Of a stretch of 64,000 nucleotides of DNA, positions 1 through 61,120 are shown one piece after another. The notes beneath the pieces are model-generated. The model worked only from the letters and a program-made list of their open reading frames with translations. It made no database searches and was not told where the DNA came from. Made by a program: the position numbers and the translations under genes. This stretch comes from Bryum argenteum. Its lineage: Eukaryota > Streptophyta > Bryopsida > Bryales > Bryaceae. Location of the stretch: the NCBI GenBank assembly GCA_037043015.1, contig CM073321.1:6716001-6780000 (forward strand), in the 5' to 3' direction. Position 1 is the stretch's first letter; each line of letters begins with the position of its first letter.

Positions 1-330
1 ACACACAATGTAAGGCAACATAGTTATCGTCGGCCCGACGATAAACTACGTTGTAAACACAATGTAAGGCAACAAAAGTTATCGTCGACCCGACGATAAA
101 CTATGTAGCAGACACTATTGAAGGCAACATAGTTATCGTCGACCCTACGATAAACTACATTGTGACATTGTGTAATGCAACACAGTTATCGTCGGCCCGA
201 CAATAAAATACGTTGTACGAACAATGTAAGGCAACATAGTTATCGTCGACCCGACGATAAACTACGTTGTATACACTATTTAAAGCAACGTAGTTATCGT
301 CGACCCAATGATACCAGTAACAATTGCCAA
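1..330. repeat. Tandem array of element-A palindromes
   Basis: Six units of about 53-55 bp, each centred on a 21-bp palindrome whose arms read TTATCGTCGG or TTATCGTCGA and the reverse complement. Cores are at 24-44, 79-99, 133-153, 186-206, 240-260 and 294-314; the last is degenerate. The palindrome is embedded in a wider imperfect one, because CAAC...GTT flanks one side and AAC...GTTG the other. A 70-codon open frame at 175-387 is just the repeat read as protein (SYRRPDD units) and is not supported as a gene. Confidence 0.9.
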
Positions 331-1110
331 CGCAGACTCCGGAAAATGCGGCACATATATCGGACCGTGAATAACTCTATGCATTGAAGTTTACAAACGA
401 TTCATAGAATACATCCTGAAATGATCTTCAACTCCAACTCAATGAAGGGCCTTGCTATCACTAACCTCAAAATGATTCTCAATTTTGAAATTTTAGAAGA
501 AGAAATATACATACAACACTTGAGGAACAGCAACGATTCTACAACATTTTGAGACTCGCGCGAAATTGAAAAACTTTCCGAAGAATACGAAGAATCAAAG
601 ACAAATGGTTGCAATACCTTGGAAGAAGAACTGAAGCAGGTATCACAACGTTGGCAAGCGGCGAAGAAAGGAGAGACCCAGCGACGGAATCGCAGGACTT
701 CAGAAAGGCTCTCGACCTTGCACTCTAAGATCGTACTAAGCAATTGAAACCGCGAAATCTGAGCGGGAGAATGTAAACCGCGGGAACGGCAGAATTTGAA
801 CGTTAGCTAAGAGACGCGGGAATTAAAAAAGTGCCACCAACTCGTCCACGTTCTCTAATCCTTTACAATTGGACCTTATCCTCGTCTTCCCGAAATATGG
901 GTGCCTTTTGCCCTGGATTCTTCTAAAAGATTACATTATTAGAAACAACCAATCAAAAGTTGTTCTTTTCGGATGAGATTTTTTTTATTCCTACTAAATA
1001 AAGCAGGAATTCTATAATTTGTGTCTTTTAGTATTTGTCCATACGCCTTGGAGTTCAATGAAACTACCAAGTTAACGATACTTTACGGTGTACTATTTCT
1101 GATTCAAGGT
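331..1110. other. No gene seen; possible 5' region of a leftward gene
   Basis: A minus-strand open frame at 402-743 has no recognisable motif. In element B the equivalent stretch (49.9-50.4 kb) is the upstream side of the minus-strand transposase gene, so this may be promoter or leader sequence of a leftward gene beyond the window edge. That is inference from position only. Confidence 0.3.
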
Positions 1111-1111
1111 G

Positions 1112-1285
1112 TAGGGTTTAGGGTTTAGGGTTTAGGGTTTAGGGTTTAGGGTTTAGGGTTTAGGGTTTAGGGTTTAGAGTTTAGGGTTTAGAGTTTAGGG
1201 TTTTAGGGTTTTGGGGTTTTAGGAATTAGGAATTAGGGTTTAGAGTTTAGAGTTTTGGGTTTTGAGTTTAAGGTTTAGATCTAAG
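1112..1285 (+). repeat. Interstitial telomere-type repeat (TTTAGGG)n
   Basis: About a dozen perfect or near-perfect TTTAGGG units at 1,112-1,200 decay into TTTAGAG, TTTTAGGG and TTAGGAATTAGGG variants up to about 1,285. This is the Arabidopsis-type plant telomere unit. With AT-rich DNA on both sides and genes nearby it is an internal array, not a chromosome end. Confidence 0.9.
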
Positions 1286-1399
1286 GGGTTTAGGATTATG
1301 GGTTTACTAAGAATCGAAATATTAAAAAGACACAAGCAATTGCCTTGTTGAAGTTTGAGATCGTTTACAACCACCAAACTTGGCTTGAGTACTGTTGAG

Positions 1400-3239: not shown

Positions 3240-4908
3240 GTCATGATGACCCAGTGCCGTAATTCTCACCTTGCTGCTCCGAACTCTCCGCGCGCTCTCT
3301 TGTCTTCGCAGCGCCGTCATTCTCACCTTGCTGCTCCAAACTCTCCGCGCGCTCTCTTGTCCTCGCCCCAGCCTGTGCGCTCTCTCTTCCTTGTTCAGCC
3401 TTCGCTCTCATCTCTCCCGTCGCTCGCCCGAAATTTTGGTGTCGCTTGTCGCGTTGTTGCTGTGGTGATTGTTGCGGTGCTTTCCGGTGATCGTTGCGCT
3501 CTCCGATTCATTGGCTGTAAGCTTCCACATTCAAAACCATTCGTTCCTTATGCCTTTGTGTGAAGCTCGCAATTAGGTATTTTCTGTGCTTTTTCTAGTT
3601 GCTGGGTGGTGCGTTCAGCTGAGCGCCTGAACGTGGAGCGCGTGCATTTGCAGATCGATGTGTTCATTCTCACCTTTTCAGGCTGGCAGTTTCGCAAGGA
3701 CGATACGGCCTTTATTTCAGGTGATGCAACGTCACTAGCTCCAGTACAATTGTTTTGTTCTCGAAGCTTACATTTTTCGCCCATGTTGATTCTGTGAGCT
3801 GGTTAATTAGGTCTAGCTTTTTAGTATGGCAGGTATTCAATTCAATGCTTTTCGTGTCTTCATTAGGTTTTCTTCGTCATTTACGGCTTCTGGACTGTGA
3901 GGTACTGAGAATTGTTCTACACACAGGCTTCAGACCTGAAACTTGCAGTTTCAACAGGTAATACTCAATTTCAAGATTTTAAAGATGTTGGTAGGTGCTG
4001 TACAGCTTTGATTCGTATTCTGCTTTTATCGTTGTTGAAAGAATGAGAAATGCTAGACCTTGTAATTACTGGTGGTCGCTAGAATCTACAACTGTCATAG
4101 ATGTTAGATTGTACAATTGAATGGAAAAGATAATCTGGCAATTTTGTTATATGCTATAATCTACGTCTGTAGTAGATTTTAGGTCTAATTGCCATTGAAT
4201 AATCTTCGATACTAGCTTTTCCAGCGTTTCGATATTAGCTCTTCGATACTAGCTTTTCTAGCTTCACATCTGTATCGTCGCCTCGACGATAAGTTTAGAG
4301 TTTATTTAATATGCATATTTGACCTAGTAAAACCGAGACAACGCTGTTATTGACTCGATGGTAGATATTCAATTTTTTCGAAAGAAACGTTTATCTTCAT
4401 ACATGTGGGTAAAATTGGGTAAACATGGGTAAATGTGGGTAAATGTGGGTAAATGTGGTTATCGTCCACTCGACGATAGGCCGGGTTTGTTTTCGAACTC
4501 CTTAAAAGAGCTGAACAACAGTTATCGTTGTGTCGACGATAAGATTTTCCAAGAGTTGGCTAAATTCATTGATATAATTCAAAAAAAACGACACGTGATA
4601 CAAAATAAACGTAGATACATAGCAGTTTGACATAAAGAAACAATTATAATAAGATTCGAAAATATGCACATCATGTTTAATATAATTTTATATCAGGTAC
4701 TTTACTTATCGTCGACTTGACTTAAAGCTTCTTATCGTCGACTTGACTTGACTTAAAGCTTGAGCTTTTGTCACTTAAAGACTTAGTCTGTGAAGCTGAT
4801 TAGAAACTCGTTGTAGTTATCGTCGGGTCGACAATAAGAACATTCCTTAGATATAGTGGGAAAATAGAGGTATAACATGATAAAATCTGGACTTTTTCAG
4901 AATTGCAG
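3240..4908 (+). promoter_or_regulatory. Leader region with intronic palindromes, element A
   Basis: GC-richer, pyrimidine-rich sequence at 3,250-3,560 looks like a promoter or 5' untranslated exon. Two related blocks in tandem at about 3,265-3,360 carry the phrase TCTCACCTTGCTGCTCC. From 4,270 the DNA is intron-like and holds palindromes at 4,272-4,292, 4,459-4,479, 4,522-4,542 and 4,817-4,837, with degenerate half copies near 4,346, 4,706 and 4,732. A short GGGTAAATGT tandem lies at 4,404-4,458. The open frames at 3,129-3,961 have no recognisable protein features and are not called. Confidence 0.5.
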
Positions 4909-4947
4909 AGGACAAAGAGCACCGCTAGAATTGTTCGGATCGAAAAC

Positions 4948-7900
4948 ATGAATGCTGATCAACCGTCGGGTGATACATTAAATCAAACTGAGGTACGACT
5001 TCCTTAGAGTAAGTTTATAATTTCAACACACATGTTTGCATGATGTCGAATTATCATTGATATGAAGATTAGTTTGAACTGATACTAAATTAATTACCTA
5101 CATATAGTGACCCTTCCTCCCTATCATATTTCTAGATATTCGCACCGCTATAAGAATCATCAACTCTTATCGTCGGGCCGACGATAAGAATATTACTCCT
5201 CCATTCTTATTAGTACACTATGCAAGAGGTGGACTTAGGATATCGCTGAGTCGACTATTCATGAGGTTGCTAAGCCATGCAGTACTATGTCATTTTGATC
5301 CTAAAGTAAATAGCTAAGGTTTCTTCTTACACTCTGTTCAGATGGCGATAATGACATCCGAAGATACATACAACTACGCTGTAACTCGTCATCATCTCGT
5401 ACCGTTCCAGAATCCCTTCGAGCCGGAAGCATTCAGCGACATCCAAGACACATACGGCCAACTCTTTGAGTTTCGAGATAACATAATACAGTGGTCCTTC
5501 GGTGTAAACAAGTTCAAGAATTTCGTCATGCTGCGAATTCAGGTCGGAACCTCAGGGATGTTTAGTGTTTGGAACTTAAGCGAGAAGGTCTCAATCATCG
5601 AGAATGTCCGGGAACACTTCATTGTAATCGTACTTAGAGCGGTAGATGACGATGGGAAGGAGCTCGATCACCAGCACTCAATCGTCTTGGATTGTAGAAA
5701 GGAGCATGCGAGGTTCAATCTAGAGAACCTTATGTCATTCATCGATTGAATGAATTAGGAGCCCCTCAATGAGCAATTTAAGAAATCTAGTTATATTCTT
5801 TGGGTGCACAATAATGGAAATAGTATTTCCAATTGCCTTAATAGGATTTTTGCTTCTCTTGATCGATACGCTAGTGAATCCGTCGTGAAGACCCCAAGTA
5901 TTGGGGGCAAACCAAAGAAGAAGGTCGCGGCTCCCACGAAGTCGCAGACGAACCTTACCTCCAGTGGCGCAGGATCTGGTAGCCGCGCTCCAAAGCCAAG
6001 TCAGCCAAGAGTGGGGGCGACGAAGAGAGATGCCTCCGTTCCGGCAACTCCTAGATCGAGCCGAAAGCGGAGGAAGAGCACAGCATCGGCTCGTTTGGTA
6101 GCTGCTGAAGATCCTCCTGTTGGTAGCGGTGTTTCAGCTATCACAACGGTTACAGCCGGCCGCACATCTTCCAAAGATGAAGTGTCCAATTTTGAGAAGA
6201 TAGCGGCAGATCAAAAGGAATTCTAGGATAAGCACACGAGTTGCTTTCTCTTCGATATGGAGCATGTGCAAGTGACCATCGAGCAATGCATCCTTGCGAA
6301 TGATCAGTACATCATTCAAACCCTTCAGAAGGACATTATGGAGAGTGTAAAGGTTAGTCTTGTCAATATGATTGACGTCCGGCAGATACAGAAGGTCTGC
6401 TTGACGCCGGTTGATAAAAATAATCAACTTTTGAAAAAGAAGCCTTCAAAATGGAAAGACATCAAGGACGGCAAGTTTATGATCATAAACGGCCAGCACA
6501 ACATCTTCGCATCGAAGGCACTCTAGACAGGAGGTTGCGGAGCAGATCGTCGTGAGAAGCTTCGCACATGGAGTGCATTTATCGTGTGGTCCTTGGATCC
6601 AACTGAGCTGAGGGCTATTTCGAAATTCTATAACATCACAAACCATCTGGACCATGCCAAGCCAATATGGGGCAACCAGATTGTGAGTTGTAGAAACATC
6701 TGGACCATGCGAAGCCAACATGGGGCAACCAGATTGTGAGTTGTAGAAACATCTGGACCTCGCTCAAACGTCCTCGAATCCAAAGAGAGGGGTAATAATG
6801 CAATCTTCAACGAGGCTAACTACAAGGTCAACTTGCAGTTCTGCTTGTTATCGTCGGGTCAACGATAAGGCTCTCTATTGCTTGGGCGATTCTTGTTCCC
6901 TAATTACATTGGTTTTTTATTTCAGAGCTTCACGGACGCTGTCATGGAGAGGTTCCGGAGCATCAACCCAGAAAGTGAGGGAGCTAAGATCCACTCATTG
7001 AAAGATCTGAAGAACGAGCTCCAAATGATCACTTTGCCGGATCATATCTGGAATCACTGGAAGGAATTTCTCACGTTGCACCAAGATGGAGAAATTATCG
7101 ACCCAACCACAATGGAGCCGTATAAGCTTGCGAAGGGGTACAGAACGTACGTTTTGAAGCGCGAGTTCTTCAAACAATTCGGTTGGTTCACGGACAAGGA
7201 CTTCGAAACTATGGTTCTGCATTTGCTCACCTTGACCCCGGGCCGGATTGCACCGTATCCCAAAGTTTCCACCAACCGAACGAAATATCTTGTACTCGAC
7301 AACATGTCGAGCGCTGACTGGGTTGAGCGGCATAAGCGCAAGAAGGCTGTGATGCAAGAAATCATGGACATTAAGCCTTCACTTAAGCTCGTGGACAATG
7401 GCGGTGATGTGATCAAGGCAACGTGGTCTGCCTGGAAGCTAGGCACAAGTTTACGTCGGCTACATGGGATCATCTTATTGCACTTACGCTTGCAGATTTT
7501 TTCAAGAAAAGGCTCCGCAATGAGGCAAGGTATCGCAGAGCAAAAGATATGGCCGACGCTCATCCCGAGGTACGGTATATGTTCACAAGGTTTATGGCCT
7601 TGACATACCGATTACCGGGGAGTACAGGAGGGGTACAGATGAGAGGCATAGATTGGCCTGTCACGACGCTTGTTGTAAGTTCTACTTATACTTACACTCG
7701 TCGGCCGGTAAACCTCGCTCTATTGGATGTTCGGAACATTCCACGTCCCCCTAGCACCGACACACGACCAGCCATCGATCCGTTCCTGAACTTCTTGCAA
7801 GAGAATTTCGAGCCTGCGATCGATACACCCAAGATTTGGCTCTTTATCCTGCTCGGTAAAGACGACATTCGAGTCGCATCATCATTTGCTGCTCGGGAGC

Positions 7901-8244
7901 TCTCCGGATATGAGGCAAAAGTCTGTACATACGTTCCCGCTAGAGCAGAAATGCTCGATAACGTCACAAACCGGGCAATTTCTCCGGACGTGACACTTCT
8001 CTTCTTGTTCAAGAAGGGCGACGAGTTTGCAAGTTTAGCAAAAGCTTTAATCAAGGATACATATTCCACCCCTGCAACTTGTGTGTATTATACAGACATC
8101 TCCAAGAATACAGAGGCGAAATGGAGACATTACGCAACTAAACTCCGCATGGAGTTTTACTTGGAGATACTACACACGTGTGCCGAGCCGAACGAAAATG
8201 TGATCGGGGTGTACGCCGGCGCAAACTTTCTTCTAGCGTCGAAG
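4948..8244 (+). pseudogene. Element A gene, N-terminal and methyltransferase-like part
   Basis: The likely start is the ATG at 4,948 in a short exon (4,948-4,992, MNADQPSGDTLNQTE) spliced in phase to 5,342. Further exons are about 5,342-6,826 and 6,926-8,244. The protein shares collinear blocks with the element-B gene, for example FIVWSLDPTELRAISKFYN here against FVVWNEDKSIIRRISAFYN, and KLRMEFYLEILHTC against ELRMEFYLKLLDLF. The last block (EFYLEIL...VIGVYAGANFLLASK) resembles the C-terminal part of amino-methyltransferases with a D-x-F-x-G-like motif, but I see no DPPW or NPPY motif, so this is weak. A 53-bp tandem duplication at 6,643-6,748 and several in-frame stops and shifts show decay. 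Stops mostly sit where Gln or Arg is expected. Confidence 0.6.
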
Positions 8245-8492
8245 GTAATGACACATCCTTTGCTTATCGTCGGGTCGACGATAACTTTTGGAGGATTACA
8301 CATCTTCCTGATTGCATGTTTGGTTTGGTATGATCTAGCCCATATCGTCGAGTCGACAATAACATTCAGTATACTTCATAGGTCTTTGATTCTTTCATAT
8401 GTGGAGATCCTATGCCTAATTATTTAGGCGAGGCAATGTTTACGTTTGGCTTGAGCTCGTCTGGTAACTGCTATCATCGACGCAACGATAGC
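5167..8492. repeat. Element-A palindromes in introns of the gene
   Basis: Copies sit in the first coding intron (5,167-5,187, perfect; a degenerate one near 5,239), in the 99-bp intron at 6,827-6,925 (6,848-6,868, one mismatch), and in the intron at 8,245-8,543 (8,264-8,284 perfect, 8,342-8,362 and 8,470-8,492 variant). The coding exons between them contain none. Confidence 0.85.
6643..6748 (+). repeat. 53-bp tandem duplication inside the element-A gene
   Basis: Two adjacent copies (6,643-6,695 and 6,696-6,748) of a 53-bp coding segment beginning CATCTGGACCATGC differ at only two or three bases. A third copy begins but diverges at once. The element-B gene has no counterpart, so the duplication arose after A and B split, and it shifts the frame. 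Confidence 0.85.
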
Positions 8493-8543
8493 ATGCAGAC
8501 TCGTTTTAAACTAATTATCTGGCTCCTTGATTGTTTTTATCAG

Positions 8544-10417
8544 ATGTTCGAAGCATACTATTTTGGCTTTACAGACCAGAAGAAAGTGAAGGGAGCCTTA
8601 AAAGTTGCTAGAGTCGCAAAGAGGATGGACAAGAACGATTTCATGTTTGCGAATTCTCCATATTCGCTCACCTACGAGCGCCCAAAGAGTCGCGTGCCTA
8701 TCGTCGTGCACTCTGATTCTCCCACTTCTTCAGATAATTCTCTTCAGTCAGCCTTGGAGATATTGCCTACTGTTGTTAGAGACATTGAGTGTGTGGGTCC
8801 ACATGTCTCTAACGATCCTGGAATTGAAGGTCTCGATCAGTTTGGAACAAACACATTCCGGATCATGTCACTGTTGTCATCTTCCTCCATAATGTCTTTA
8901 AATCCGACAGAGGAAGGGGGTGATGTGTTCGTGTCGCAGACTCAGATTCCCATCGGCGACGTGGCGCATGCGACAGAGACGAATGAGAGCAGGTCGGATT
9001 CGGACTCTAAATCAGAGACACATGATGATCTTGACCCATCTTCACCGTGCGAATCTGCTCAGGACACAGCAGATCCGGATGACTTCAATGCAATCGTTCC
9101 ATTCGACGAAGCCGTTCCAGACATTGCAGAGAACAGCCGGATCATACTGCCGCAGGTCTTCCTATCGACGAGGATGTCATCATTACAGAAGTTCTCGGAT
9201 ATGTGGTTAAAGGATTTCTGGACCAGATCCTCGACGAGGATCAGTTGGGTTCCGACAATCAGGCGGGGGAGGTCAGTTTGATGGAAGAAGGTCATGATAG
9301 GCAGGCCGCTGGCCAAGATGGGCAGGCCGCCGAAGGTTTGGTGGCCGGGGATGCTCCACGGGCGAACAAAGAGGAAGAGATGGAGGTCGTTAATGATGAC
9401 GATGTCACGATCTCTGCAGTAGTCGGAAGACAACCTCCCGACCCCAAAGACATCATTGACTTGAGTGATGATGAATTCAACATCCACTCTTCCGATAGCG
9501 ATGATGACGAGGATGATCAAGTCCAGCCCGACATGAAAGCCATTGTTCGTAAGGGGAAGACGATTAAGGTGGAGAAGGACTACTGGAAGAGGTCCGAGGA
9601 GAAGTATGCCAGGAAATTGGAGCGGCGGAAGGTTAAGGCGCAAAAAGAGAAGGAGCGGCTTGAGGAGCAGCAGAAGCTTGCTGATGCCGAGGAGGCCATC
9701 AGATTTGCAAACGAGAAGGTCGCCCATGTTGAGGTTGAGGCTGCGGCAAAGATCAGGGCTCTACAAGATGAGTCAAGGGAGATGTTCAAACATTTGCAAG
9801 CTCAGATGGTTGCCTTGGCTGCAGCGGCTTCCGCTTCTCAAAGCCAACCCTTTACGACTTCGTGAGCTGCAAGCGCATGTCTTCTGTCGCCGTCCAGGAG
9901 CGCTCCACTGCCTCAGCCTCCAAAAGATGTTGTACCTGTCTATCGCCGACCCGACGATACGGCTGGCACACATTCTGAGGTTGTCACCCCTTCCGGTGTG
10001 AATCAGCTTGTCTTCGATGCTGTTGCTGAGGTTCAGCAGCCTGAGGTTTATCGTCGACCCGACAATACGTCTCACATCAGTGGTGAGCGCGAGGCTACTG
10101 CTACCGAAGCTAGCGAAGCAGTTGGTGCATCCGATGAGGTTCAAATCCCCATGGATCAGGTTCAGGTTGAACGGAATGACCTTCCTGAAGCCCAACAGTC
10201 TCAGGATTATCGTCGAGCCGACGATACAACTCACCTTCGTGCTGCGCCAATCAATGGTGGCAATGTGGTCGAAGGTTTGAAGGAGTCGCACTCACCATCC
10301 GTAGCGGATGTTGATTTTGTGGACTACGAGTTGGGAGCTGAGGACATCGCCTTCACCGGTCACGAAATCCACTGTCCTCCTGCCGAACATCCTCCCGCCG
10401 ATGACGACCCCAACCAG
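8544..10417 (+). pseudogene. Element A gene, acidic and coiled-coil part with exonic palindromes
   Basis: The exon begins after the acceptor at 8,543 and ends at the donor at 10,417. In order: a short block related to the element-B protein (YYFGFTDQKKVKGALKVAR); a long Ser/Asp/Glu-rich stretch with a SIM-like IIDLSDDE followed by an acidic run; a Lys/Arg/Glu coiled coil (about 9,550-9,810) rich in KLERRKVKAQKEKERLEEQQ; and a tail with three copies of a YRRPDDT-like unit. Those units are the element-A palindrome itself at 9,940-9,960, 10,048-10,068 and 10,207-10,227, read in the same frame each time. One frame change near 9,150 and one stop near 9,863 mark it as decayed. The acidic stretch and SIM-like motif suggest a nuclear, chromatin-associated protein (inference). 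Confidence 0.6.
9940..10227. repeat. Three element-A palindromes inside a coding exon
   Basis: The cores lie 108 and 159 bp apart, both multiples of three, so all three are translated in the same register as VYRRPDDT, VYRRPDNT and DYRRADDT. In the homologous element-B gene the palindromes are all outside exons. Confidence 0.85.
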
Positions 10418-10921
10418 GTACAGACATCTGACCCTTATTATTTTGGGTGATTCCATCTTGCATGGAGTCTTCTATCCGGCACTCTAGGAAACTGATTCTA
10501 GTTCTGTTTTCTAATATGATATCATTCGTCTAGCTAGGATGTCAACACCGGTTCATGATGACTTGCGCGCGGACAGCCACCCCGTCTGTGGCGATTTCTT
10601 GTGTACCCTATTGTACAATAGTGTGAAAAGTAGTAATGAGTATATACAGACTTTGAGGATGTATCCATTTCAAACATATATATAAAGAGTGACGATTTGT
10701 TCAATGACTTGCGCATGTGTCTAATTGTCATTGCTTGTCAATGTCTATGTTGCCCAGCTCCGGAACAATATTTGCGTGCATCATCCAATTACCTTGGAAG
10801 CTATCTCTAATGGGGGACCGCAGTTGATTAGGAAAGCTGATTGCTCCTATCCACTCTCGGCCTCCCCTATTTCATCATTTAATCAGGTAACCTCATTTCT
10901 TTGTTGTTCTGTATTAATCAG
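10418..10921 (+). other. Intron of the element-A gene
   Basis: The donor at 10,418 (GTACAG) and acceptor at 10,921 (TTAATCAG) are both in phase 0 with the flanking frames. It contains no palindrome and no other feature I recognise. Confidence 0.5.
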
Positions 10922-11773
10922 GTAGAGTGCCTCGAGGGTAGGAGGGTGATCGTTCCGACACCGCCGCCTCCGTCGCGGAGGAAGTGGCTGAATATTGTCT
11001 TCAACTTGAACGGTATACTTTGTCATACAGCGTTTAGGTCGACGGCTGTTGGACAAAGGTCGTACAAGTTGGAAGACAATGTTCTCTGCCACCGAATTCC
11101 AACTGTAGTCGTTCCCAAGGTTGTTTTCGCCCGTCCAAATCTTGGAGATATCCTACGCCAGGTCTTCGGGATGGCGAATAATGTCTTAGTCTGGACCTCA
11201 ATGCAAAAGCGGAATGCAGATGCCATCGTTGGCCATCTCTTCCGCGGTACGCAGGCTCCAGACGCCATCTTGAGCCAGGAACAATGTTCGAAGATTGAGC
11301 TCTCTCCAGGGCGATTCTTCCACGTTGGTCAGAAATTGATGTGTATGAAGGTCCTCTCGGAGACCTTGTTCACCAACCCCTATAGGGGCACATTATTTTC
11401 GTCTGACAATATTCTTCTCATTGATGACTCTCCAATAAAGAGCATCTGCAATGAGAATGGCAACGCTGTGTTCCTTCATACTTGGAATCTCCATGTTGGA
11501 GAGGACGACTTTTTTCTGGGAGAACTCTTACCATGGCTTCGAGGGTTAGACTCTAGGTGCCAAGCGGGTGAGCTACGGAGATATGTTGAAGCCAATCGAA
11601 TTGGTCTCTACCCGTCAAGTGTGGGTGACTTGGCTGTAGATGACCTCATTGCTAGGATGAGAGAATCCTCGAAGAATATGGGGACGCGGTTCAATCTTCC
11701 TGGGTTGGGCATGGTTGTTGAGGGAGGAAGGGTTAGATCTAAGTCTCCGATGCGGGCATTGGATTTAGCTTAG
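10922..11773 (+). CDS. FCP1/SCP-like HAD phosphatase domain, element A
   Basis: Open frame of about 284 codons with the FCP1-homology fold. Motif I is KWLNIVFNLNGILC, motif II VLVWTSM, and motif IV NILLIDDSPIKS, followed by an ELLPWLRGL block. Active family members use D-x-D-x-T/V in motif I to dephosphorylate Ser/Thr, classically on the RNA polymerase II CTD. Plant relatives often read D-L-N-G. Here motif I is N-L-N-G, so the nucleophilic Asp is missing and this copy is probably inactive or a binding pseudo-phosphatase; the element-B paralogue keeps the first Asp. The exon joins upstream in phase 0. It ends at a TAG directly before a GTAACA donor, the position where CAG|GT would be expected, so the tail exon may once have continued the protein. 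Confidence 0.8.
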   Translation, partial: VECLEGRRVIVPTPPPPSRRKWLNIVFNLNGILCHTAFRSTAVGQRSYKLEDNVLCHRIPTVVVPKVVFARPNLGDILRQVFGMANNVLVWTSMQKRNADAIVGHLFRGTQAPDAILSQEQCSKIELSPGRFFHVGQKLMCMKVLSETLFTNPYRGTLFSSDNILLIDDSPIKSICNENGNAVFLHTWNLHVGEDDFFLGELLPWLRGLDSRCQAGELRRYVEANRIGLYPSSVGDLAVDDLIARMRESSKNMGTRFNLPGLGMVVEGGRVRSKSPMRALDLA

Positions 11774-11960
11774 GTAACAAACAATTTACCATGGATACAA
11801 TTTTGTGTAACATATGTATTTGTAGTTAAATAATTCAAGCGGTGCTCTGACTAAATATGAAATGTTATTGTTTTTTGTTGGATTTCTCTTGCTTTTGAGC
11901 TTCTCTGAATATGCTTAATGGTTTGTGTCGGAGTTTATTCTAAGCATTGTACAACAACAG

Positions 11961-12745
11961 GATGGATCTACTAGCATCCCTGAACCAAGGAGTCCCCGAA
12001 TGTTGACTAGAAGTCTTCGCTCGGGATCAGATTCTGGAGGATGGAGTTGCAACTTACTTCCATATCATACTTGTTGCGATCTGCAGCCGACGCCATCTCT
12101 GCGGCTATAGACTATTCAAGGGCGGATATTGAGGATGGCGTAGTGAATAGTCCTCCAAGTCGCGGACCAATCAGAACTCCCATGTGTTCGCCGTCCCCGC
12201 TGAGGCACGTATCATCGAGTCGAGAGGATTGCTTTTCGCCAAATGCTTCAGCTGGCAAGGGGACCAACCGCAATTTTAACCTTACCTTCATGGAGACGCT
12301 CGAACCCCAACAAGTGAAAGAGATGCGCAAGGTTGCGATTGTTGAGCCAACTATGCAAGCGGCCGTCATCACTAGATCTCCGTATGTACGCAAGGAAAGT
12401 CTTCCTAGGACCCTTATAGTTGCCGAACTTGCTCACACTGAACCGCCTAAACCAACAAGTATTCCAGATATGTATAGAAAGAAGCTCAATGACACAATGT
12501 CCCCGCTTCCTCCTCTAGGGACACGGTCACTTTCGGAGGGCAAGGTGGGTAGGGCTTTAGATAGCAATGGAAGGAAAAAATCAAAATACGGGACATTAGT
12601 ATACGATAGTGCATGTTATAATGGGGCAACTGTCTGTTACTCCTCCTATCCTTCTCGCCGGGACGGTATCATGAGAGGTATGGCCAAGGCCGAAAGCGAT
12701 TTAGGTCACGCTAAGGCAAGGAAGGAAGGATTATCCAAGAAGTGA
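11961..12745 (+). pseudogene. C-terminal tail exon, element A gene
   Basis: It starts after an ACAACAACAG acceptor. It shares with the element-B tail a block around DGVVNSPP...CSPSPL, a hydrophobic VAIVEPTMQAAVI stretch and a KLNDTM block. Otherwise it is Ser/Pro/Arg-rich and of low complexity, with many SP and RSP sites. The opening frame (MLTRSLRSGS) gives way to the conserved frame near 12,040, implying one frame break. No known domain is recognised. Confidence 0.5.
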
Positions 12746-14493: not shown

Positions 14494-14598
14494 GTTGCAA
14501 TACCTGCCGCACAATATTTGCCACGACCAATAGAATTTATTTTTTTGGCTGCCCAAAGTTTGAACTAGGTTAGGGTTTGAAGGAGGTGCGAGTGTAGG

Positions 14599-46183: not shown

Positions 46184-49034
46184 TCAAGCATTTGAAAATT
46201 CAACTATAGTATCGTGAATGACTTTAATTTGATCCACTGGAATTTTTAAAGTGCACTCGGTTGTATCCTTCTTCACCTTTGACTTCGATGATGTCATCAA
46301 TGAAGCTGTATTCTCCCACAAAGGAGGTTGAGTACCTTCAACCTTCCAACGCAATTTTTTGTCCGAATGCCATCCTTTGTAGGTCTCTTGTACATCTCAA
46401 TTTCTTGATGTAGGCCGAAAGAATTATATAAGGATGCAATTTGGCTGCTCAAGATTTATGTTCGGATCTGACAACGCTCGAGCAATCCACACCGGTCGTG
46501 AGTCACCATCAGCAGGCCGAATAGCAACAAAGTATTCTTTATAAACATCACAAGCTACACGAAAAGATGGTTGAGGGCGATCTCGGATCTCTCCAACATA
46601 GGCCTCATCCTCTCCAAACTCCTCAAGATATTCGCCATCTTCAGCAAATTGGTCCTCCAAGGTCGCATCTATTCTCAATAATGGCCAAAATCCGTCCCGA
46701 AGAACATTCGATGGTTCAATGGGAACCTCTAGTGCTGCCTTCACAGCGTGCCAATAGAACAAAAGATGTTCATAGCGTCTCCTATACTCTCCAGTTCTAT
46801 CTTCATCAGACATTGCCTCCCAGTACTTAATAAATCCAAAAATGCCCTTCACAATGTCCTCCACACCCCTCATTGCACGATGCATCGTAGGAGTTGGATC
46901 ACCACGTGGCCACAAAGAACGACCTTCCGAGTCCTCTCTCCACAACTTAATTCCAGTTGTATCATTTGGCAACCAATCTTCTGCTGTGCACAAAACGTTG
47001 TACTTCATAACGGGACAACCTCTAGAATCCAAAAAAAACTTGAATTGTTGTGCCTTCGTATGACCAACAAGTGCTTTCCCTCCATCCTTGATAAACCCAT
47101 CGATAAATCCTTTAAAATCCGGCACCTCTTCAACAAGGTGGGGGATGGGTGGAATAGATTCCACGTCCATGAAAGATTTCATGGGTAACGGAATAGTGGG
47201 GAAATTGTCTTTCCTCAACAACATGCTCCACCTCCCAAACATTGCATCAATGTCATCATGGGTATGCCCAACTAACATGATATTGACTTATACCTCGCAG
47301 AAGATCTTCTTTGCAACAAGGAGAGACCAAAAACAGAATACATATCTATTCTTGTTGTCACTTGCTGCATTGTCCATCTCAACATTGAGAATCGGCGGAA
47401 GACGAATCCTTTGAAGTGGAAGAGCTGGTGCTGGACGGAGTGACGATACGCAAGTCTCCACACCTTGGAGAACAACATCAAAAATAGGTGCCGACCTCGA
47501 CCCAGCAAAAAGCTCCCTTGAAGAGTAATTTGGAGGCAACTCTATATCTCGGAGCAGCTTAGCAAAAGAGCCCACCGTGTAATTTGAATCGTGTGCAAAA
47601 ATATCTAGACCGTAATGTACGTAGCGTACATCTCCGTGGCCATGAGCGATCATTCTTGTGACGGATACTGGTAGCTTCATTAGACCATCAAGCTCCTTAC
47701 TCTTGTGAGAAAAGACAGGGGAAGCGGTCTTCGCATGATCCATTTTGTCATGCATAATGGTCAAACACTCATGCGGATAGGTTTTTGACCTATACCTGTT
47801 TGCATATTATAACTCCCGATGAGCACGGGCTGCAGCCGAGTGTACCTTGAGCTTCTTTGCCCAAAATAGTGCTTGTTGCGACCCAGAAATAGAGCCACGA
47901 CAGAGTGTGTGCAACCGATCACGTTTGGAGCACCAAGCAAAGTTATCCCCGGATTTCTTCGCATCAAATTCAAGAAAGCGTAACTTCCGAATTCTACCCG
48001 AACAAGATGGTGAGACCATCTTCAAACCGAAGCCTTCGTTTGCGGCGTTGATTTCTGGGATGGCACTCTTCTGTTTCCATGTAGCGGGAAGAATCATCTA
48101 TGCAACCTTCTCTCCAGATTTTAATGTCCTCGTTCGGTGCGGCATGTGATCCGCAAAGTTCTCCAGGATGCAACGCAGGGTTTCAGTTGTGTGCGACGTG
48201 TGCTTACGCGGTTTAAGTAAAGACAAATTTCCATGGGGATGGGCCATGACGCCATCGGCCACGTATGTTTGAAACCAACGAAAGGTTGCCTCGGACACTC
48301 CAGCAATATGTCTCCACGCAGGCAAGTAAACATCGATTCCCTCAACCGTGACCACCCTCTTTCCGTCAGCATTTTGATGAACCTGCCTGTGAACGTCAAG
48401 CTTCATCAAGCTTCATGTGAAACGTGAATTGGTAGGTGGTTCCACTATACATCCGTTCTCGGAAACATCGGATCTTCTCCCTCGGGAAGGGCTGAACGCA
48501 GTTCCTAGTGCAGCATACTTTGCTTGGGATAGAATTGATAGATTCCTGAGTTAATAAGCCTTTGGATTTGACGGATGTTTCAGGAGGCGGGTTCCTAGAT
48601 GTATTGTTGTAACTCCGGCTACGCGATGACTGAGGTCTCGCAAGACGTGCAACACGAGAGTCATGATCGTGTCGTATCTCATGGTCTTTGACACTAGCCC
48701 CATTATAGAAGACTTTATCGATCGGCCACGCTCTGACAAAATATCTCCACTCATCTGGCACCATTGTGGCATCAAGGGTCCTCGAGATTTGAACTGTGAC
48801 TCGGGAGTGCCCAAGTGGACCGTTGCTTCCGAGGACGAGATCGTAACTGATGCTGTGACAAAGGCCCTCCGCTACAGGGCGACCCTCGTCACCATAAAGA
48901 GTAACGAACTTTGTAGCCCAAAGACGCCGAGGGATACCTTCACACATTGGAACGTCTTCCGGAACCTCGGGTTGCTCCACAACCTCCTCATCAGAGGAAA
49001 AATCACCAAGCAATTGAACATCTTGAGCAGCCAT
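46184..49034 (-). pseudogene. VGHTHDDID-type transposase-like gene, element B
   Basis: Minus-strand frames from ATG 49,034 (MAAQDVQLLGDFSSDEEV). Later blocks: TLRCILENFADHMPHRTRT; KMDHAKTASPVFSHKSKELD; then a presumed catalytic core with MDNAASDNKNRYVFCFW and VGHTHDDIDAMFGRWS, giving conserved Asp-rich motifs like those of DUF7869-type proteins; then PMKSFMDVESIPPIPHLVEEVPDFKGF, HTKAQQFKFF and PSFRVACDVYKEYFVAIRPADG; and a C-terminus ending at 46,184. A 10-bp tandem duplication at about 48,396-48,415 shifts the frame and about five in-frame stops occur, most explained by C-to-T change of Gln or Arg codons. Likely a DNA transposase; the DUF7869 link is from memory. Confidence 0.7.
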
Positions 49035-49092: not shown

Positions 49093-49852
49093 TTCAACTC
49101 GACTCGAGTTGAATACAATAATGACATAAATCTAATAAAATTATTTACATGTAGACAAGATGTTGGAATAGATTCTCTGTCACCTAATATGTCCATGTAT
49201 TCAACTCGAGTCGAGTTGAATGCCCACAGATAATTAATGCGAATCAACATCACGGAAGAGTATATTTATAACTATGTGCTAATTCTGATTTAACTCGATT
49301 CGAGTTAAATATTGTTGGGGTGGTTACAATATCACTTGTCTCAGCCGGAGATCTGAACCGTTCATTTCGACACGACTCTAGTAAACGATTGGAATGCATA
49401 ATGATATTATACTCCCACGGACAAACAAGAGGACATTGAGTGATGACGAATTCAACTCGACTCGAGTTGAATGCCAAGACCCATGACTATAGCATTTCAG
49501 ATTCCGTGAGTTATATTGATACATATAGATTATATCACATAATACGTGGAAATTCACATTTTACTCGATTTGAGTTAAATATAATTTGGCTCATGTAATG
49601 TCCATAACGGGGCCGGATATCCACACCGAGATTCAACTCGACTCGAGTTGAATATCCGCACCATAAAGGGAACATCTCCTTATGACATTGGATGATTTCC
49701 AACTCAACTCGAATCGAGTTGAATGTCACCGCCTAATACTGTAACATCCTTATTATGAAACCATCACTGAATTACAATTTAACTCGACTCGAGTTGAAAT
49801 TGAACAAACATACATACTATGGCAATATAAATTCAACTCAACTCGAGTTGAA
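49093..49852. repeat. Nine element-B palindromes
   Basis: Cores at 49,093, 49,200, 49,289, 49,451, 49,559, 49,632, 49,704, 49,778 and 49,832, each 19-21 bp: TTCAACTCGA (or TTTAACTCGA), one central base that may be A, C, G or T, then the reverse complement. Five or more are perfect outside the centre. Spacing is irregular (54-162 bp) and the DNA between them is unrelated, so this is a dispersed motif, not a tandem repeat. Short open frames beginning MTFNS or MAFNS here are the motif translated. Confidence 0.95.
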
Positions 49853-53847: not shown

Positions 53848-56192
53848 ATGCACAGCGGCCGCCACGAGTCCATCTTATATCACACTCCTGAGTCGACGGG
53901 AACAAGGAGGCGCAAGGCGAATCCGTCCCAAACACAGCGGGGGCATACATCCAAGAAGCTCAAATCAGTCACAACGAAGAAGTCGACCCAGGCCGGTCCC
54001 ACTGAGATTGAACAGGCGAGCTTAGTGTCGGCCTTGACGGAAGTACCCATCGACAATGTAGAGAAAGTTGTCAATTAGAAGGAGTCCATGAATGCATTCA
54101 AGAACTACGGGGCACTATGCCAAGACTCTTACATCTTCGGCTCAGATGCCACTTACGAGATTCCAATCGAGCGTCTCTTTACCCCCCCCCCCCCGCGGAA
54201 CTGAACATCCGGAACATTGAGCAGGAAAAAGTAAGGTACACAATGCATTTCCTTATTGAGATGTGCGATAAGGAGAAGAAGAACACCCTCTGCGTCTTCC
54301 CAAAGAATAAGCTCGTAAAACCCCAATCTTGGGAGGAGATACACAACGGGGAGTTCTACAATCATGGTCAATGGACAACACTGCGTCGAGGCCTCCAAGC
54401 AGTTGCAGAACAGGCTCGATGTAGATGCTAACATCAGGGACGCTTTTAAGGCCTGGAACTGCTTCGTAGTATGGAACGAAGATAAGTCCATCATTCGGAG
54501 AATCTCCGCGTTCTACAACGGGGTCAACCACTTCATGAATACAAATCCAACGTGGGCGACAAACATCATCTGGGCGCGGGAGCTGTGGGAAAGCCTCGGT
54601 AGACTGGAGAATCCAAAGGAGGCTACTGAGGTTGGCAGGACCGTCACACAGAAGGCCTCCAAGAGCAAGAAACCAGCAAAGGACGCATTCAACGTATGTG
54701 CAACTCCATTCAACTCGATTCGAGTTTAAGACTGTTCTACACTACTAACGATGATATTTTGAGTCCATTCCTGCTGTAACCTATTTCAACTCAACTCGAG
54801 TTAAATATCTAACTCAATATCGTACTCGGTTGATACATGAGTTTATAGAAGCTATCAAGCTTAGATTTGCTCTCATTGACGTGAAGGGCGCCTAGAAAGG
54901 AGTAACAGCAAGCAAGGCGGCCAGAGAAAAGCTCAACATCCAGAATGAGCTTAAAATCATTTGTGCTCCAAATGATGTCTACGAGGTCTGGCTTGAGCTT
55001 ATCTCAGCCGCATCCCAAGGGAAGCTCATCTACCCCCACACACAGGAAGGAAGATGAAGGAGTTGGGGAAGTGGGAGCTTGAGCATGGACACATCACCAA
55101 GGAGTTCTTCAAATGGATCGTCATCACAAGCTACCCCCAGCTCAAGCGATTAGCCAAGCATATGCTGAACAGACCGGACCCGAAACGGCGATACACATAC
55201 CCCAAAGTCACATTGAAGCAGATGAAGGGTGTGTTTGTAGATTGCTACAGCTCTTACGGCTGGTTGGAGCGCTGCAAGAGAAAGACCATCGTGAAGCGCG
55301 TGATTCACAGCATGCGCCCTGACTTAATGGTGTTCAATACGAGTGGGGACTTCAGGAAGGAGAGCTGGAAGAAATTCAAGATTGATTTTAAGATAACGCC
55401 AGCTACACTGAACGTTTTGATCACGAATCCCGGGGAGTCCTTCTTTACGCTGGCGAAATTCCCCGGCAACAAGAACAAGTCCATTGAGCAACTCTCGCCG
55501 TATGCAGCAGAGTTCTTCAGAGTCTTCCTCGCCAACAAGAGGAAGTTCCAGGTTCCAAAGGGCGAGACAAACTTCAGGGCCTACAGCCTGGAGGACGATG
55601 TGCTGGGGGAATGGCACAATGACTCTTGGAACGAATTATCTTCTAAGAGAATCAAGGTCGGAATAATGGACTTTCGTAATCTCCCTGGAGCACAGGAGGT
55701 ATCAGCTTCATCGAGCTCGTCATCAGGCTCGTACTTTTACAACGTCTTCCACGTCCTAAAGTCTATGACGGACCCGGTAGTAACTGAAATCCCTGTTTGG
55801 GTTTGGATTTGCGGAACTAGGGATGCTGAGGCGAAGATGAAGAATCACCTCGATAGTTGCGAGTTTGGAAACAACTACAAGATAGAGTATGCGGAATATG
55901 TTCCGGCTCCATATGAGCGACTCGAGGACCAAACCCTGTCTGCCAAGAAGGCCAAGGATCATGTCCAGATCCTCTTCTTGTTTTGTAAATCTCAGAAGTT
56001 GAAGATTTTGAATCTCCCCAAGTTTTTCCAAGCCCCTGACATTCCACAGTTCACCATCTGCCTGAGATACAACGAACTCAAGTACCGGAATTGAGGATGG
56101 AGTTCTACCTGAAGCTGCTTGATCTCTTTTGCAAGGAAGGGGATGCGATCCTCAGTGTTTTTGGGGGCAGGAAGCTCTACTGTGCGGCCTGG
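53848..56192 (+). pseudogene. Element B gene, N-terminal and methyltransferase-like part
   Basis: The ATG at 53,848 lies just after an acceptor; exon ends at AAC|GTATGT (54,693); the next exon starts at 54,896 after CCTAG and runs to TGG|GTAAGG (56,192). The N-terminus is basic (RRRKANPSQTQRGHTSKKLK); then blocks homologous to element A: WEEIHNGEFY, ASKQLQNRLDV, AWNCFVVWNEDKSIIRRIS; the longest frame (55,054-56,094) includes KVGIMDFRNLPGAQEV and VTEIPVWVWICGTRD; the last block ELRMEFYLKLLDLF...ILSVFGGRKLYCAAW is the weakly methyltransferase-like motif. A long C homopolymer near 54,182 and several frame changes and stops break it. Like its paralogue, it has no match I can name with confidence. 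Confidence 0.6.
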
Positions 56193-56601
56193 GTAAGGAC
56201 ATCTATATATTTCAACTCGATTCGAGTTGAATAGTTCGTCATGACTCTGTTGCTTTCTAAGCTCGTTGTATTCATGTGGAGTCGAGTTCAGTGTGCACTT
56301 CAGTGTCCAAGGATCATTTCACACTAACTTGGATTCTATTCAAGTCGACTCAAGTTGAACGGATTATTTAGTCTGCTGCAAAACCTTCTTCTTACATGCG
56401 TTCTAATATTTAACTCAACTCTAGTTGAATGTGATGTTTGAAGGCGCTTAGAGTTTATATTTGGTATTCAACTCGACTCGAGTTGAATGCGCACAACAGA
56501 GTAGTATTGTAGTGCTTTCACACGCCAACTCCGTTTCAACTCGATTCGAGTTAAACGTACAAATGATTGACATTGTCATCTCCTGCTATGTCTACTAGCA
56601 G

Positions 56602-57555
56602 ATTTGTTCGCTGATGAATTACACAATCAGCTCCAGCGACGAGCACGACAAAGTTGTCAAACTTTCAATGGAGGTCTTCAACTTGGATCGTCGAGATTTC
56701 GAAGGTGGGCACCATCTCGGTGAGGCTTCCGGATCCAGGGAGAGACTGAACCACCACCACCCCCTATAAAGGCTGAGAAGGGGAAGGCAAAGAGGAAAGG
56801 CAGGGCAGTTGAGTTACCACTTGACGTGAATGACCAAAGGCCGATAGTAATCAGGTCAAGTGAAGACAATGACGATCCTAACCAAGATGTTGAGGCCTAC
56901 GGATCCCAACTCCTGATAACGCCCCAAACTGGACGAGGCTCATCTTCTCATCTTCCTCATCCCCAGGAACAAGGCTTCTCGGATAGTTGTCTTCCGACTT
57001 CCACGCCATCGCCTCTGAAGAGAAGAAGGGAGTCACTATTCGTTGACGCTCTAATGGAAAGGCTCGTTGGAATGCAAGAGGAGGCGCAGGCGCGAAAAAG
57101 GGCCGAAGTTGAAGCAATGATTGCTTGAGAGCGCGAGGAACGCAGACTCCAGAGACAGGAGGATGAGCAACGATGGGGCGTAATGATGTCTGAGGCCTTC
57201 GCGAGAATACCTGGGGTAGTAGTCCAAGCAATTTCGCACCTCAATGCAAAGCCGCTCCTCTCGCTCGATCCAAGTTATAGAGAACCTCTGCTTCTGACCC
57301 ACGGGGCTACTCAGTCTTCCGAAAGCGGTGCAGCTCGACATGCATCTCCTCGACGTTCCGTCCAAGGCACGCCTTTTGAGTCGACTGCAGCTCCCTCACC
57401 TGCGGGCAACATCGATCAAGTTGTTTGTAGGGATTAAGGCCCATCAAGTCGCTCCATACCCTCGGACCCAGTCGATTTGAAAAGGAAGACCTTGGATAAG
57501 GAAGACCAGATAGGGACACAGGATGAGACTCCCGATCGGAACGTTACCGGATCAG
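56602..57555 (+). pseudogene. Element B gene, acidic/coiled-coil exon
   Basis: Begins after CTAGCAG with MNYTISSSDEHDKVVKLSME, the counterpart of element A's YYFGFTDQKKVKGALKVAR. It continues Pro/Lys-rich (IKAEKGKAKRKGRAVELP), acidic (RSSEDNDDPNQDVE), and a coiled coil (ALMERLVGMQEEAQARKRAEVEAMIA and on). It ends at a CAG|GTTGAAC donor. A frame change near 56,760 and two stops at Arg/Gln-type positions. Shorter than in A, without the SIM-like acidic run and without exonic palindromes. Confidence 0.5.
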
Positions 57556-57811
57556 GTTGAACTCCACGATCTAGTCTTTCATTTTACTCGACTCAAGTTG
57601 AACTTCTCGTTCGATTAATGGAAGATCGCTTGTAGAAGCCTTCGAGAGTTGTTGTTAGCCTAGTATATATATTCCCCTAGGACAGTTTTGTTAGATTGGA
57701 CTTAGTGTTCATCGTGTAAATACTTTTTGTATAGGACGCTCATTTTTGAACGCAAAGTTTGGAATACTATCATATTTTCTTACACATTTTCTCCCTCTGA
57801 TTTCTACGCAG

Positions 57812-58041
57812 GCTCTATTGATTTGCGAAGTGTTCCGAATGTTTGTTTGTCTCATGACGTCATCCCTATGGAAGGCACTAGTCCTATGAGTCTGTTTCAT
57901 GGTGAGCCAAGTAACACGGCGCAAGATGATCACAATGAAGGTTACATTCCGGATTCAATCTTGCTCGAGGTTCACATTCCTCTTCCATCCTCGACCGCTG
58001 TACGAGATTCACAAACAGCTGAAACTCAATCAGAGACGCCG
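57812..58041 (+). CDS. Linker exon, element B gene
   Basis: Exon between TACGCAG and GCCG|GTAAGC: GSIDLRSVPNVCLSHDVIP...SILLEVHIPLPSSTAV...ETQSETP. Open throughout. Polar, no known domain; it corresponds in position to the palindrome-bearing linker of element A. Confidence 0.45.
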
Positions 58042-58215
58042 GTAAGCTGCTCCTATTCCAAAATCTCATTTTCATTCAATCCTTTATTTATTAGGTCGGT
58101 GTGATCGCATTGTTTGGATTTGGGATTTCTTAGTGTTATAGTAATGATCAGTCTTAAAATGTGGCAGGTGCAGTACTTAACTGTCTACACATTTTTCTGC
58201 CCCCCTTCTGAACAG

Positions 58216-59020
58216 AGGATGAGTCATTCGCACAGTCCGGTAGTTGCAGCTGTGGAGGATATCCTTTGTTCTATTCCCTCAAGGGTGCCATGCAAGTGGC
58301 TCAATGTCATCCTGGACTTGAACGGTATTCTCTGTGTCTGCAAGGACAACAGATTTATGCCAAAGGACCAAGTTTACAACATGGTCGCGAGTGCACATTC
58401 CTCTGTCCTACCCACTCCGATTCGTCCCAAGGCTGTTTTCGTTCGGCCCTTCTGCCTTGATTTCCTTCGTGAGTTGAGTGAAGTTGCATACATCTCCATA
58501 TGGAGTTCGATGGTTCATGCGACCACGAAGTCCATATGTGACTACTTGTTCCGGGGTGTGCCATCCCCGTGCCTTGTTTGGGGGGCAGAACTCATGTGAG
58601 GTTGTCAAGGTTCGTGGACCACGGAATACGTTGTCTAACTTCAAGTTGAAGGGGACTCATAAGGATCTCTTCCTCAAACCACTGGATATGCTTTTCAATG
58701 GTCTAAACTCAAAGTTTAATGAGCATGACACGATCATCATCGACGATAGCCGTGAGAAGCACGTCGTGAATGAACCAGAGAATGTCGTACTGCCAATCTC
58801 GTGGTCAGAGCATGATGTATCTGACAGATTCTTGGTGGACGAGCTCCTCCCTTGGTTTCAACGTCTACATCAAAGCCGCGGTTAGGGCTTGTTGTCTTTC
58901 CGTAGGGAAGACAACATTGGGCGTAGAATGCTCTCTGAAGAGCTCGATACTTCAGAATACAAAGAGCTTATTAACGCCGTAGAGGCTTCTAGGAAGCTAG
59001 TGCTTGATTACGCTAGTTAA
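58216..59020 (+). pseudogene. FCP1/SCP-like phosphatase domain, element B
   Basis: Exon starting after CTGAACAG. Motif I is KWLNVILDLNGILC, so the first (nucleophilic) Asp is kept and the second position is Asn, as in plant D-L-N-G relatives. Motif II is ISIWSSM, motif IV DTIIIDDSREKH, then VDELLPWFQRLHQ and a helical extension ending LVLDYAS at a TAA. One frame change near 58,590 and one internal TAG near 58,883 break it. Closest relative in the window is 10,922-11,773. Expected family role: Ser/Thr phosphatase acting on nuclear phosphoproteins such as the polymerase II CTD. Confidence 0.75.
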
Positions 59021-59277
59021 CCAAGATTGGTCTCACCAGACAAGATTCAAATTTGTCATGTATATTTTGTAGATTATAATAAATGATTTCAATATCAATT
59101 ACTCCTTTTGGATTGATTTCATTTCAGAGCGGGCTGGTGTCCGACCTTTTATTTTATCGTAGTATTTGATGGTGCTAGTTCTCTCAGCATTGGTTTAACT
59201 CGAGTCGAGCTGATTTGGCTATATCATATTGCATATCATCCTTGTTGATGATTCCTTTTAAATGAATTCGTATCCAG

Positions 59278-60150
59278 GTGTCCAATTCCGTCACGGTTTC
59301 GGACAATGATTTTGATTTCCGTTGCGCTGCTTCTGCTGATTTGATTTTGGACTACGGAAAATACACAATTTTGCACAGTAGAATGGGCCATATAATGTAC
59401 TCAGTAGCTACTGCACAATCAACTATGGACTACTCGACAATGGCAATTGATGATGGTGTTGTGCATAGTCCTCCTTTTGGCGGTAAACGACGACACTGTG
59501 CATGTTCTCCTTCCCCGCTGAAGAACCGTACTATGATAGACGAATCAAGTCGAGGTGGCGCTCCACAAAGAAAGCTTTATGATGATTCTGACTTAGTTGA
59601 GGATGCACTTCCGGTACAGCTATGTAATAAATGAAGCAGTTCATCTATGAGTTTTTTTGTGGTTGTTAAATTCAATCGTAGTTTGATTTACTTACATTTC
59701 TCTATCTCTTTTCATGGACTTAGGCAACTGTTGCAGCTATCGTGCCCATACCGGTCATCTTTGAGTCCTCGGCTCTTCGTGTATCACCTCATAAGGTATC
59801 GTTGCTCAAAATATCTTGTGGTGCGTCGACACATTCTCTCTCTACGCCTTATCCATTGAGGTCTTTGGAGTCGGCAGCAGAACTTGGAGACTGCATGACA
59901 GAACTAATGGGGCCACCTGTTGCCCACGCTATTGATACCTCGCGTTTGCCCTTCCGTACTATGCGCCCGCTATTACACAAGGGTCACCGCCAGACTCAAT
60001 GACACGATGGATTTCAGCCCAGAGTTAGTTGTCCTCCAATTGGTGATGCATTGGAGCAACGGATTTTGAAGCTTCAAAGACGTCAAAATTCAAGTTCGCG
60101 TTCGTCACCATACACAGGCTACAGTCGTGGACCAGAAGTGTAGAAGGCAC
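59278..60150 (+). pseudogene. C-terminal tail, element B gene
   Basis: An exon from 59,278 (SNSVTVSDNDFDFRCAASADLI) with AIDDGVVHSPPFGGKRRH and CACSPSPLKNR blocks shared with element A, ending near 59,611 at a GTACAG donor. A further exon from about 59,725 (AIVPIPVIFESSALRVSPHK) and a RLNDTM block near 59,990 follow the same order as A. Low-complexity Ser/Pro content, function unknown. Confidence 0.45.
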
Positions 60151-61120
60151 TAGATGAAATTTGAAGCCGTTCGCACTTGTCATACGGCAACAGTCTTTAT
60201 ATGATTTGGAGGACATTGATCGGCATGGTTCTTTATGGATAGCCCACATTCAACACGATACTGTATTTTTCTAATGGTATAGAAAAATCGTATTTACCAT
60301 CGTACATTCAGATCATTCATATGTAACTAGAGCTCACATTTATATCTGGATGAGCATATTTCCTTTGACGGGGTCAATTGGTGTATACAATGTCTATAAA
60401 TAAACATACATTCATGTATATTCCATTGTGGTATACAATTATTCATCCAACTATATCTACTTTATACCATTTTTAACGGCCTATTTGGCTTTTTATCATT
60501 ACTTCTGGGACTCAACAATACTCTCATTATTGAGGGATACTCTCAAAATAATGAATATGGTGTTTAATATAGGCCTACTTGTTTCGTCAACCTTCCACAA
60601 TTTGATCCCAGCTGAATGTGTTGGTTTCCATTTTCCTTCGTACAGGCTAATTTGTATTGCATTAAAGGCCATCAACTCATAATTCGTTATAATGGTAAAA
60701 TTCAAACTCTCAAAAACCAATCGACCTAAATTCCAACATATGTATCGAGCTAAACGCGCGTGTTGTAGAGCTAAAGTGAATACAAAAGATGATGAAAGTA
60801 GCAAACGCAAAATGCATTCCGACATCAATTTGCAAAAAGAGCACAATAAAACGATAAACTCAATTAAACTGGGAATCGACAATTAACGCCGAAAAAATAC
60901 AAACACTTGAATCATTGACCTTTAAGGCACAACGATTGTACCAATACTTAACTACGGATATCAACCGCTAGCATAGATAAGAGATAGGACTTCTACGTGC
61001 ATTTCTAAGATGATTCTATTGGCAAAAAGTCACGACACGATAAATTGATTGCTCAAATTGCACTGAGGTCATTTAGCTCGACTAGAGCTAAATTGGGATG
61101 CCCGAATAAACTAGGGATGT
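60151..61120. other. Spacer, no gene seen; one variant palindrome
   Basis: AT-rich. A variant palindrome with arm TTTAGCTCGA lies at 61,072-61,092 (AGCTC where element B has AACTC), with one arm mismatch. The open frames at 60,428-60,886 have no recognisable features. Confidence 0.5.

Follow-up and report, generated by a model that had tools for sequence, protein, structure and literature searches.

We found that two related elements, A and B, in a 64,000-nucleotide stretch of the Bryum argenteum genome (contig CM073321.1, positions 6,716,001 to 6,780,000 of the forward strand; this whole stretch is the window below) each carry a private family of 21-bp palindromes, placed mostly in noncoding DNA. 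Both families fit one frame, TT-N4-TCGR-N-YCGA-N4'-AA, in which a four-base word, ATCG in A and CAAC in B, tells one family from the other. With moderate confidence, we posit that these palindromes are putative dyad binding sites of an element-encoded dimeric protein that would serve the element in self-recognition.

Scanning for whole palindromes (21 bp, with two 10-bp arms and a free centre; at most 4/20 mismatches; 40 shuffles) recovered 18 in A, spanning 24-10227, and 18 in B, spanning 49093-59214, with zero of either type elsewhere in the window and shuffle means of 0.08 and 0, respectively. As exact half-sites, the A arm TTATCGTCGR has 21 matches in the window, in the range 24-10216 (0.20 expected), and the B arm TTCAACTCGA has 17, in the range 49093-56544 (0.15 expected). 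Loosening the scan to 5-6 mismatches adds one A-type and one B-type match outside the respective element, which is the chance level. An earlier sequence-only reading of this DNA had confined about 20 copies of the A arm to 1-13.2 kb and about 18 copies of the B arm to 49.1-59.2 kb, and both confinements hold, as does its claim that A and B are homologous, which protein comparison and the presence of a NIF domain in both elements bear out. Its view that the two palindromes are unrelated in sequence does not survive, since their arms are identical at 6/10 positions in the same register (about 0.03 for random arms) and relatives show the same frame. Judged by their arms, the A and B palindromes are related through a constant frame and a family-specific word. 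Privacy was assessed in the window and in a 4.8-Mb metagenome-assembled genome (MAG) that carries relatives of these elements: in the window, the palindromic frame occurs in A, in B and at 61072 only, and elsewhere it is found in the MAG relatives.

These relatives were sought by scanning GTDB contigs with D1, the DUF7869 gene beside the B palindromes, and then by searching the MAG with the frame, its N4 left free. The D1 scan returned a single relative, CADCWO010000071.1 (contig C71, locus L001), filed under a cyanobacterial MAG, whose DUF7869 frame is open over 963 aa, shares 57% identity with D1 and is flanked by palindromes with a third word (arm TTTAGCTCGA). The free-N4 frame has 12 sites in the MAG, versus 0 for a backward control, all of them on the contigs C71, C74, C243 and C269; 10/12 are perfectly symmetric, 2/12 have one mismatch, and each contig uses a single word (TAGC on C71, ATCC on C74, CAGC on C243 and C269). 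C71 codes for DUF7869, and C243, C269 and C74 code for proteins homologous to the B accessory protein (identities of 38, 36 and 32%), with a NIF domain also encoded on C243. At up to 5 mismatches, there are 7, 5, 9 and 9 palindromes in the loci L001, L012, L013 and L014 (L001 sites at 79, 205 and 4202, with 6 mismatches, are excluded), and 0/30 lie in exons, which make up 50-66% of these contigs under approximate gene models. These contigs, which have predicted introns, probably entered the MAG reference genome as contamination from a eukaryote. Among 291 genomes of the MAG's class, DUF7869 was detected in that MAG only, and viral contigs scanned with part of D1, the B open reading frame (ORF), L014 exon 2, L001 and both palindromes gave zero matches. 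The contigs of the four loci stand under isolate AVDCRST_MAG81.

One pair of loci illustrates the conservation of the sites. L013 and L014 are 77-81% identical in their two main exons, and four of their palindromes align (in introns 1 and 2 and in the DNA after the stop codon), with 80/80 arm positions identical and the centre differing in 3/4; the rest of the noncoding alignment matches in 411/885 columns, with gaps counted as differences. Such conservation speaks against the palindromes being passive, functionless repeats that multiplied through tandem duplication or spread as minute mobile units, an origin that the 54-bp tandem repeat of the A array would fit. The single frame across families and the palindrome-free coding DNA of the relatives also count against passive spread, which we regard as very improbable. 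A comparison of five elements by pairwise identity shows that word and protein agree in one region of the accessory protein, the INGQH region: there, the A fragment shares 42/66 residues (64%) with L012 (words ATCG and ATCC) and 37-38% with B, L013 and L014, and B shares 46-47% with L013 and L014 (words CAAC and CAGC) and 38% with L012.

We predict that B is probably a two-gene element composed of D1 and the accessory gene. A minus-strand D1, an array of nine palindromes beginning some 60 bp away from the start codon of D1, an AT-rich stretch and the plus-strand accessory gene, with NIF near its 3′ part, follow one another. From the array onwards the layout of A is the same, and its DUF7869 gene would lie past the left edge of the window. 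Predicted intron 2 sits at the same protein position in both elements, and in each it holds palindromes of that element's own family. The earlier claim of noncoding placement stands for 18/18 sites in B and 15/18 in A, in regions with coding fractions of 0.497 and 0.485, and fails for the other 3/18 in A, although these counts depend on gene models that are approximate throughout, and the array sites are not mutually independent, so binomial values for them serve as a rough guide. A CATG-rich inverted repeat, with 12 CATG in A (3132-3236) and 13 in B (52169-52278), is found upstream of each accessory gene, a cis feature common to both and in the same place, unlike their differing words.

The DUF7869 proteins are putative transposases; matches to the domain (PF25273) exceed the cut-off of 26 bits in D1 (45.9 and 62.9), in D2, a second such gene (63.8), and in L001 (128.6). 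In Pfam, the D1 ORFs match DUF7869 only and no Mutator-type transposase, and the predicted D1 structure has a low mean pLDDT of 31.8. If these proteins transpose the elements, the palindromes could be transposase sites for transposition itself, through end recognition or synapsis, in the manner of the Spm and Ac subterminal repeats, and play no part in either expression or silencing. The position of the B array next to D1 and the palindromes on both sides of the L001 DUF7869 gene are consistent with this, but many sites are intronic or mid-element, and B has no clear terminal repeat containing a palindrome. The best inverted pair at the B ends (45351-45376 / 60539-60564; 23/26 bases, 0/200 shuffles as good, the best shuffle one point lower) has no palindrome inside and lacks a flush target duplication; it provides candidate ends, and the limits of B are provisional. 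On balance, transposition sites are an unlikely explanation. The palindrome at 61072-61092, with which the sequence-only reading had closed its range, has 1 mismatch to the L001 word and 5 to the B word and is thus probably part of the neighbouring DUF7869 element and not of B, whose own sites end at 59214.

Returning to the self-recognition reading, dyad symmetry around a free centre, the independence of arm changes in A (1 double change versus 1.15 expected), the presence of sites on the promoter side as well as in introns, and strict conservation together point to a dimer bound to DNA. We infer that an element-encoded dimer would bind the frame TT....TCGR N YCGA....AA, with the four-base family word setting its specificity. 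The likelier binder would be the NIF-domain accessory protein, because the word follows this protein in the INGQH region, with the DUF7869 protein a less likely candidate. By keeping sites in the divergent promoter region, the introns and the noncoding DNA on the 3′ side, each family could mark its own copies, most plausibly activating them or countering their silencing, as VANC does for VANDAL elements; the anti-silencing step taken alone is a tentative proposal made by analogy.

The accessory protein itself gives limited clues. The NIF domain is detected with E values of 5.7e-10 in A, 2.3e-7 in B and 2.4e-14 in L013. NIF/FCP-type phosphatases have the catalytic motif DxDx(T/V), which is altered to NLNGI in A and to DLNGI in B and L013, sequences that do not fit it. 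PHROGs and NCBIfam scans gave no usable match for this protein, Pfam, PHROGs and NCBIfam gave no ParB match, PDB sequence searches gave no credible match, and the predicted structure of the B accessory ORF has a low mean pLDDT of 40.8. In hhalign comparisons with sets of 12 DGQHR proteins (of 13 loci), 15/16 ParB proteins and 19/20 methyltransferases, the INGQH region weakly matches DGQHR proteins over 18 columns (E 0.0056, probability 6.6%), and the final part of exon 2 weakly matches N6/N4 methyltransferases over 40 columns (E 0.017, probability 2.7%; the corresponding Pfam DNA methyltransferase match, E 0.033, is under cut-off). Both beat all cross-comparison, reversed and column-shuffled controls (E 0.13 or more), and we treat them as leads only. 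A speculation that builds on these leads, and to which we give little credence, is that frame and word constitute the rewritable address code of a transposon superfamily, whose reader would derive from a ParB/DGQHR-methyltransferase-like ancestor, load at many parS-like palindromes, spread along the element and thereby cover and protect its own family's copies alone.

Several observations weigh against self-recognition by a DNA-bound protein. In Pfam scans of the accessory protein, NIF alone exceeds the curated cut-off, and no recognised DNA-binding domain does. The CpG content around the sites gives no clear protection signal. The A sites at 9940, 10048 and 10207 fall inside an open reading frame, and A and B are broken copies. 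When relaxed to TTNNNNTCGNNNCGANNNNAA, the frame is unspecific by count in the MAG (18 sites, control 17), with 14/18 on the four contigs. The L014 palindrome at 5988, a fifth one, lacks a counterpart in L013, aligning at 16/20 to non-palindromic DNA and bringing the arm total to 96/100 when included, and some L013 palindromes have no counterpart in L014. Intron 2 as reported was picked by reading frame, and the automatic splice search scored another donor-acceptor pair at 59 versus 56 for it; the exon past it matches weakly alone (score 24, 71/1000 shuffles as good), while the stretch joined across it matches strongly (score 62, 0/1000 shuffles as good). Exon 2 hardly separates the word groups (B-L013 38%, B-L014 36%, L012-L013 34%, L012-L014 36%; A-L012 37%, A-others 33-35%), and the two D2 fragments show no clear preference, with identities of 61 and 52% against L001 compared with 57 and 52% against D1. 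Given the agreement in the INGQH region set against these last two results, the sequences suggest at most that word and protein co-diverge. Finally, same-base double changes in the B arms number 4 versus 1.23 expected, as would also fit a role in RNA, with the palindromes forming intron hairpins that affect splicing or stability; consistent with such hairpins, the first palindrome lies 12-25 nt past the donor in the eight introns measured (A intron 1, of uncertain donor, is excluded). We consider this quite improbable: the A arms have no excess of paired changes, arrays occur in promoter-side DNA too, and the short introns of the relatives would by themselves bring sites near the donor.

To our knowledge, no other transposon with sequence-specific anti-silencing has been studied as well as VANDAL with its VANC proteins. 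VANC21 binds YAGTATTAY in noncoding DNA, leading to methylation loss, and VANC6 targets carry other motifs (PMC5735166). The VANDAL motifs, like those of A and B, are short and family-specific, lie in noncoding DNA (introns, intergenic and terminal stretches, and the region upstream of the gene for the transposase), occur in tandem repeats and differ jointly with the accessory protein between related families (PMC5735166, PMC10398659). In contrast, VANC motifs have 8-9 bases in a single orientation, with binding and demethylation shown, whereas A and B have 21-bp palindromes with a constant frame and a variable word. Here, DUF7869 takes the place of the VANDAL transposase, and the accessory protein has a NIF domain. 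No match to VANC-type domains (DUF1985, DUF287) was found in the accessory ORFs against Pfam at E up to 1 and up to 10, so the system is apparently unrelated to VANDAL; the earlier proposal of an analogous but unrelated self-recognition system thus keeps its family-specific conserved motifs and must give up motifs without a shared frame. Spm TnpA and the Ac transposase bind subterminal repeats near element ends; these repeats resemble the palindromes as many copies of a short element-specific motif, but A and B use introns and mid-element DNA too. Among plant transposable elements, sireviruses also have conserved repeated noncoding motifs, and the paper uses the word palindromic, but they are LTR retrotransposons and have no frame-plus-word design in the portion of it available (PMC2829016). 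Fungal TET/JBP DNA transposons likewise encode enzymes that could act on silencing marks, but these are other enzymes, and no palindromic sites appear in the accessible sections (PMC12730594). A search of the open-access literature, with subscription papers mostly outside it, found DUF7869 unmentioned, no match for palindromic noncoding anti-silencing motifs and, among transposon-encoded SET or NIF domains, no mention of NIF; the novelty of the palindrome system is accordingly provisional. If true, a second, unrelated dispersed-motif system would point to this strategy having arisen more than once, and the frame-plus-word design would open the joint evolution of the protein and its DNA site to direct tests and could yield orthogonal families of DNA-binding proteins.

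Table 1. Coordinates of palindromes, genes and elements in the window.
Feature	Coordinates	Strand	Remarks
A array	24..314		palindromes 24, 79, 133, 186, 240, 294 in 54-bp tandem repeat
A palindromes	4272..5187		4272, 4459, 4522, 4706, 4817, 5167; accessory gene 5′ noncoding; 4732 with 5 mismatches
A accessory gene region	5318..12742	+	NIF 10883-11770; several in-frame stops
A palindrome in predicted intron 1	6848..6868		donor uncertain
A intron 2 (predicted)	8245..8543	+	palindromes 8264, 8342; 8471 with 5 mismatches
A palindromes in open frame	9940..10227	+	9940, 10048, 10207; peptides YRRPDDT, YRRPDNT, YRRADDT
Element E	14400..20810		imperfect inverted ends 14408-14430 / 20773-20795; SWIM-like match
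Element C	26097..37045		terminal inverted repeats of 26 bp, perfect; noncoding blocks rich in GTAC; gene with pre-SET/SET
DUF7869 gene D1 (putative transposase)	46427..49034	-	in-frame stops and frame change; probably belongs to B
B array	49093..49852		49093, 49200, 49289, 49451, 49559, 49632, 49703, 49778, 49832; between D1 and accessory gene
B accessory gene region	53860..60140	+	NIF 58105-58596 and beyond; in-frame stops; limits approximate
B intron 1	54697..54896	+	palindromes 54709, 54785; acceptor approximate
B intron 2 (predicted)	56193..56601	+	palindromes 56211, 56339, 56409, 56467, 56535
B palindrome	57582..57602		3 mismatches
B palindrome	59194..59214		3 mismatches
Palindrome TTTAGCTCGA-C-TAGAGCTAAA beside D2	61072..61092		word of relative L001
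DUF7869 gene D2, second, broken	61356..62258	-

Private noncoding motifs are common among the elements of the window. Element C is, by its sequence features, a DNA transposon carrying a histone methyltransferase-like gene, and GTAC occurs in it 54 times in 2138 bp of noncoding DNA (25 per kb) versus 15 times in 7364 bp of coding DNA (2 per kb), with the noncoding blocks picked after the GTAC bins were viewed. GTAC-centred motifs are therefore dense in noncoding blocks of C, as had been noted for its introns and ends, but they have a 4-bp core and not the 10+1+10 design. Element E carries the window's six exact copies of CAATACCTGCCGC, three of them within a 64-bp array. Because the motifs of C and E are of other designs, the notion that each large element has a private palindrome family applies to A and B and does not extend to one system common to every large element. 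Premature stops break up several reading frames of A, B, C and D1, and many of these stops are TAG or TGA of the kind that C-to-T changes at methylated sites would yield. Within A, the palindrome sequence doubles as a peptide-coding repeat at 9866-10450, with three in-frame YRRPDDT-like copies. A TTTAGGG-type array at 1108-1278 and the predicted introns give the window a eukaryotic, plant-like look. Lastly, 23245-24542 and 40817-44101 hold repeats that are related to each other at 85-90% identity and may be LTR pieces.

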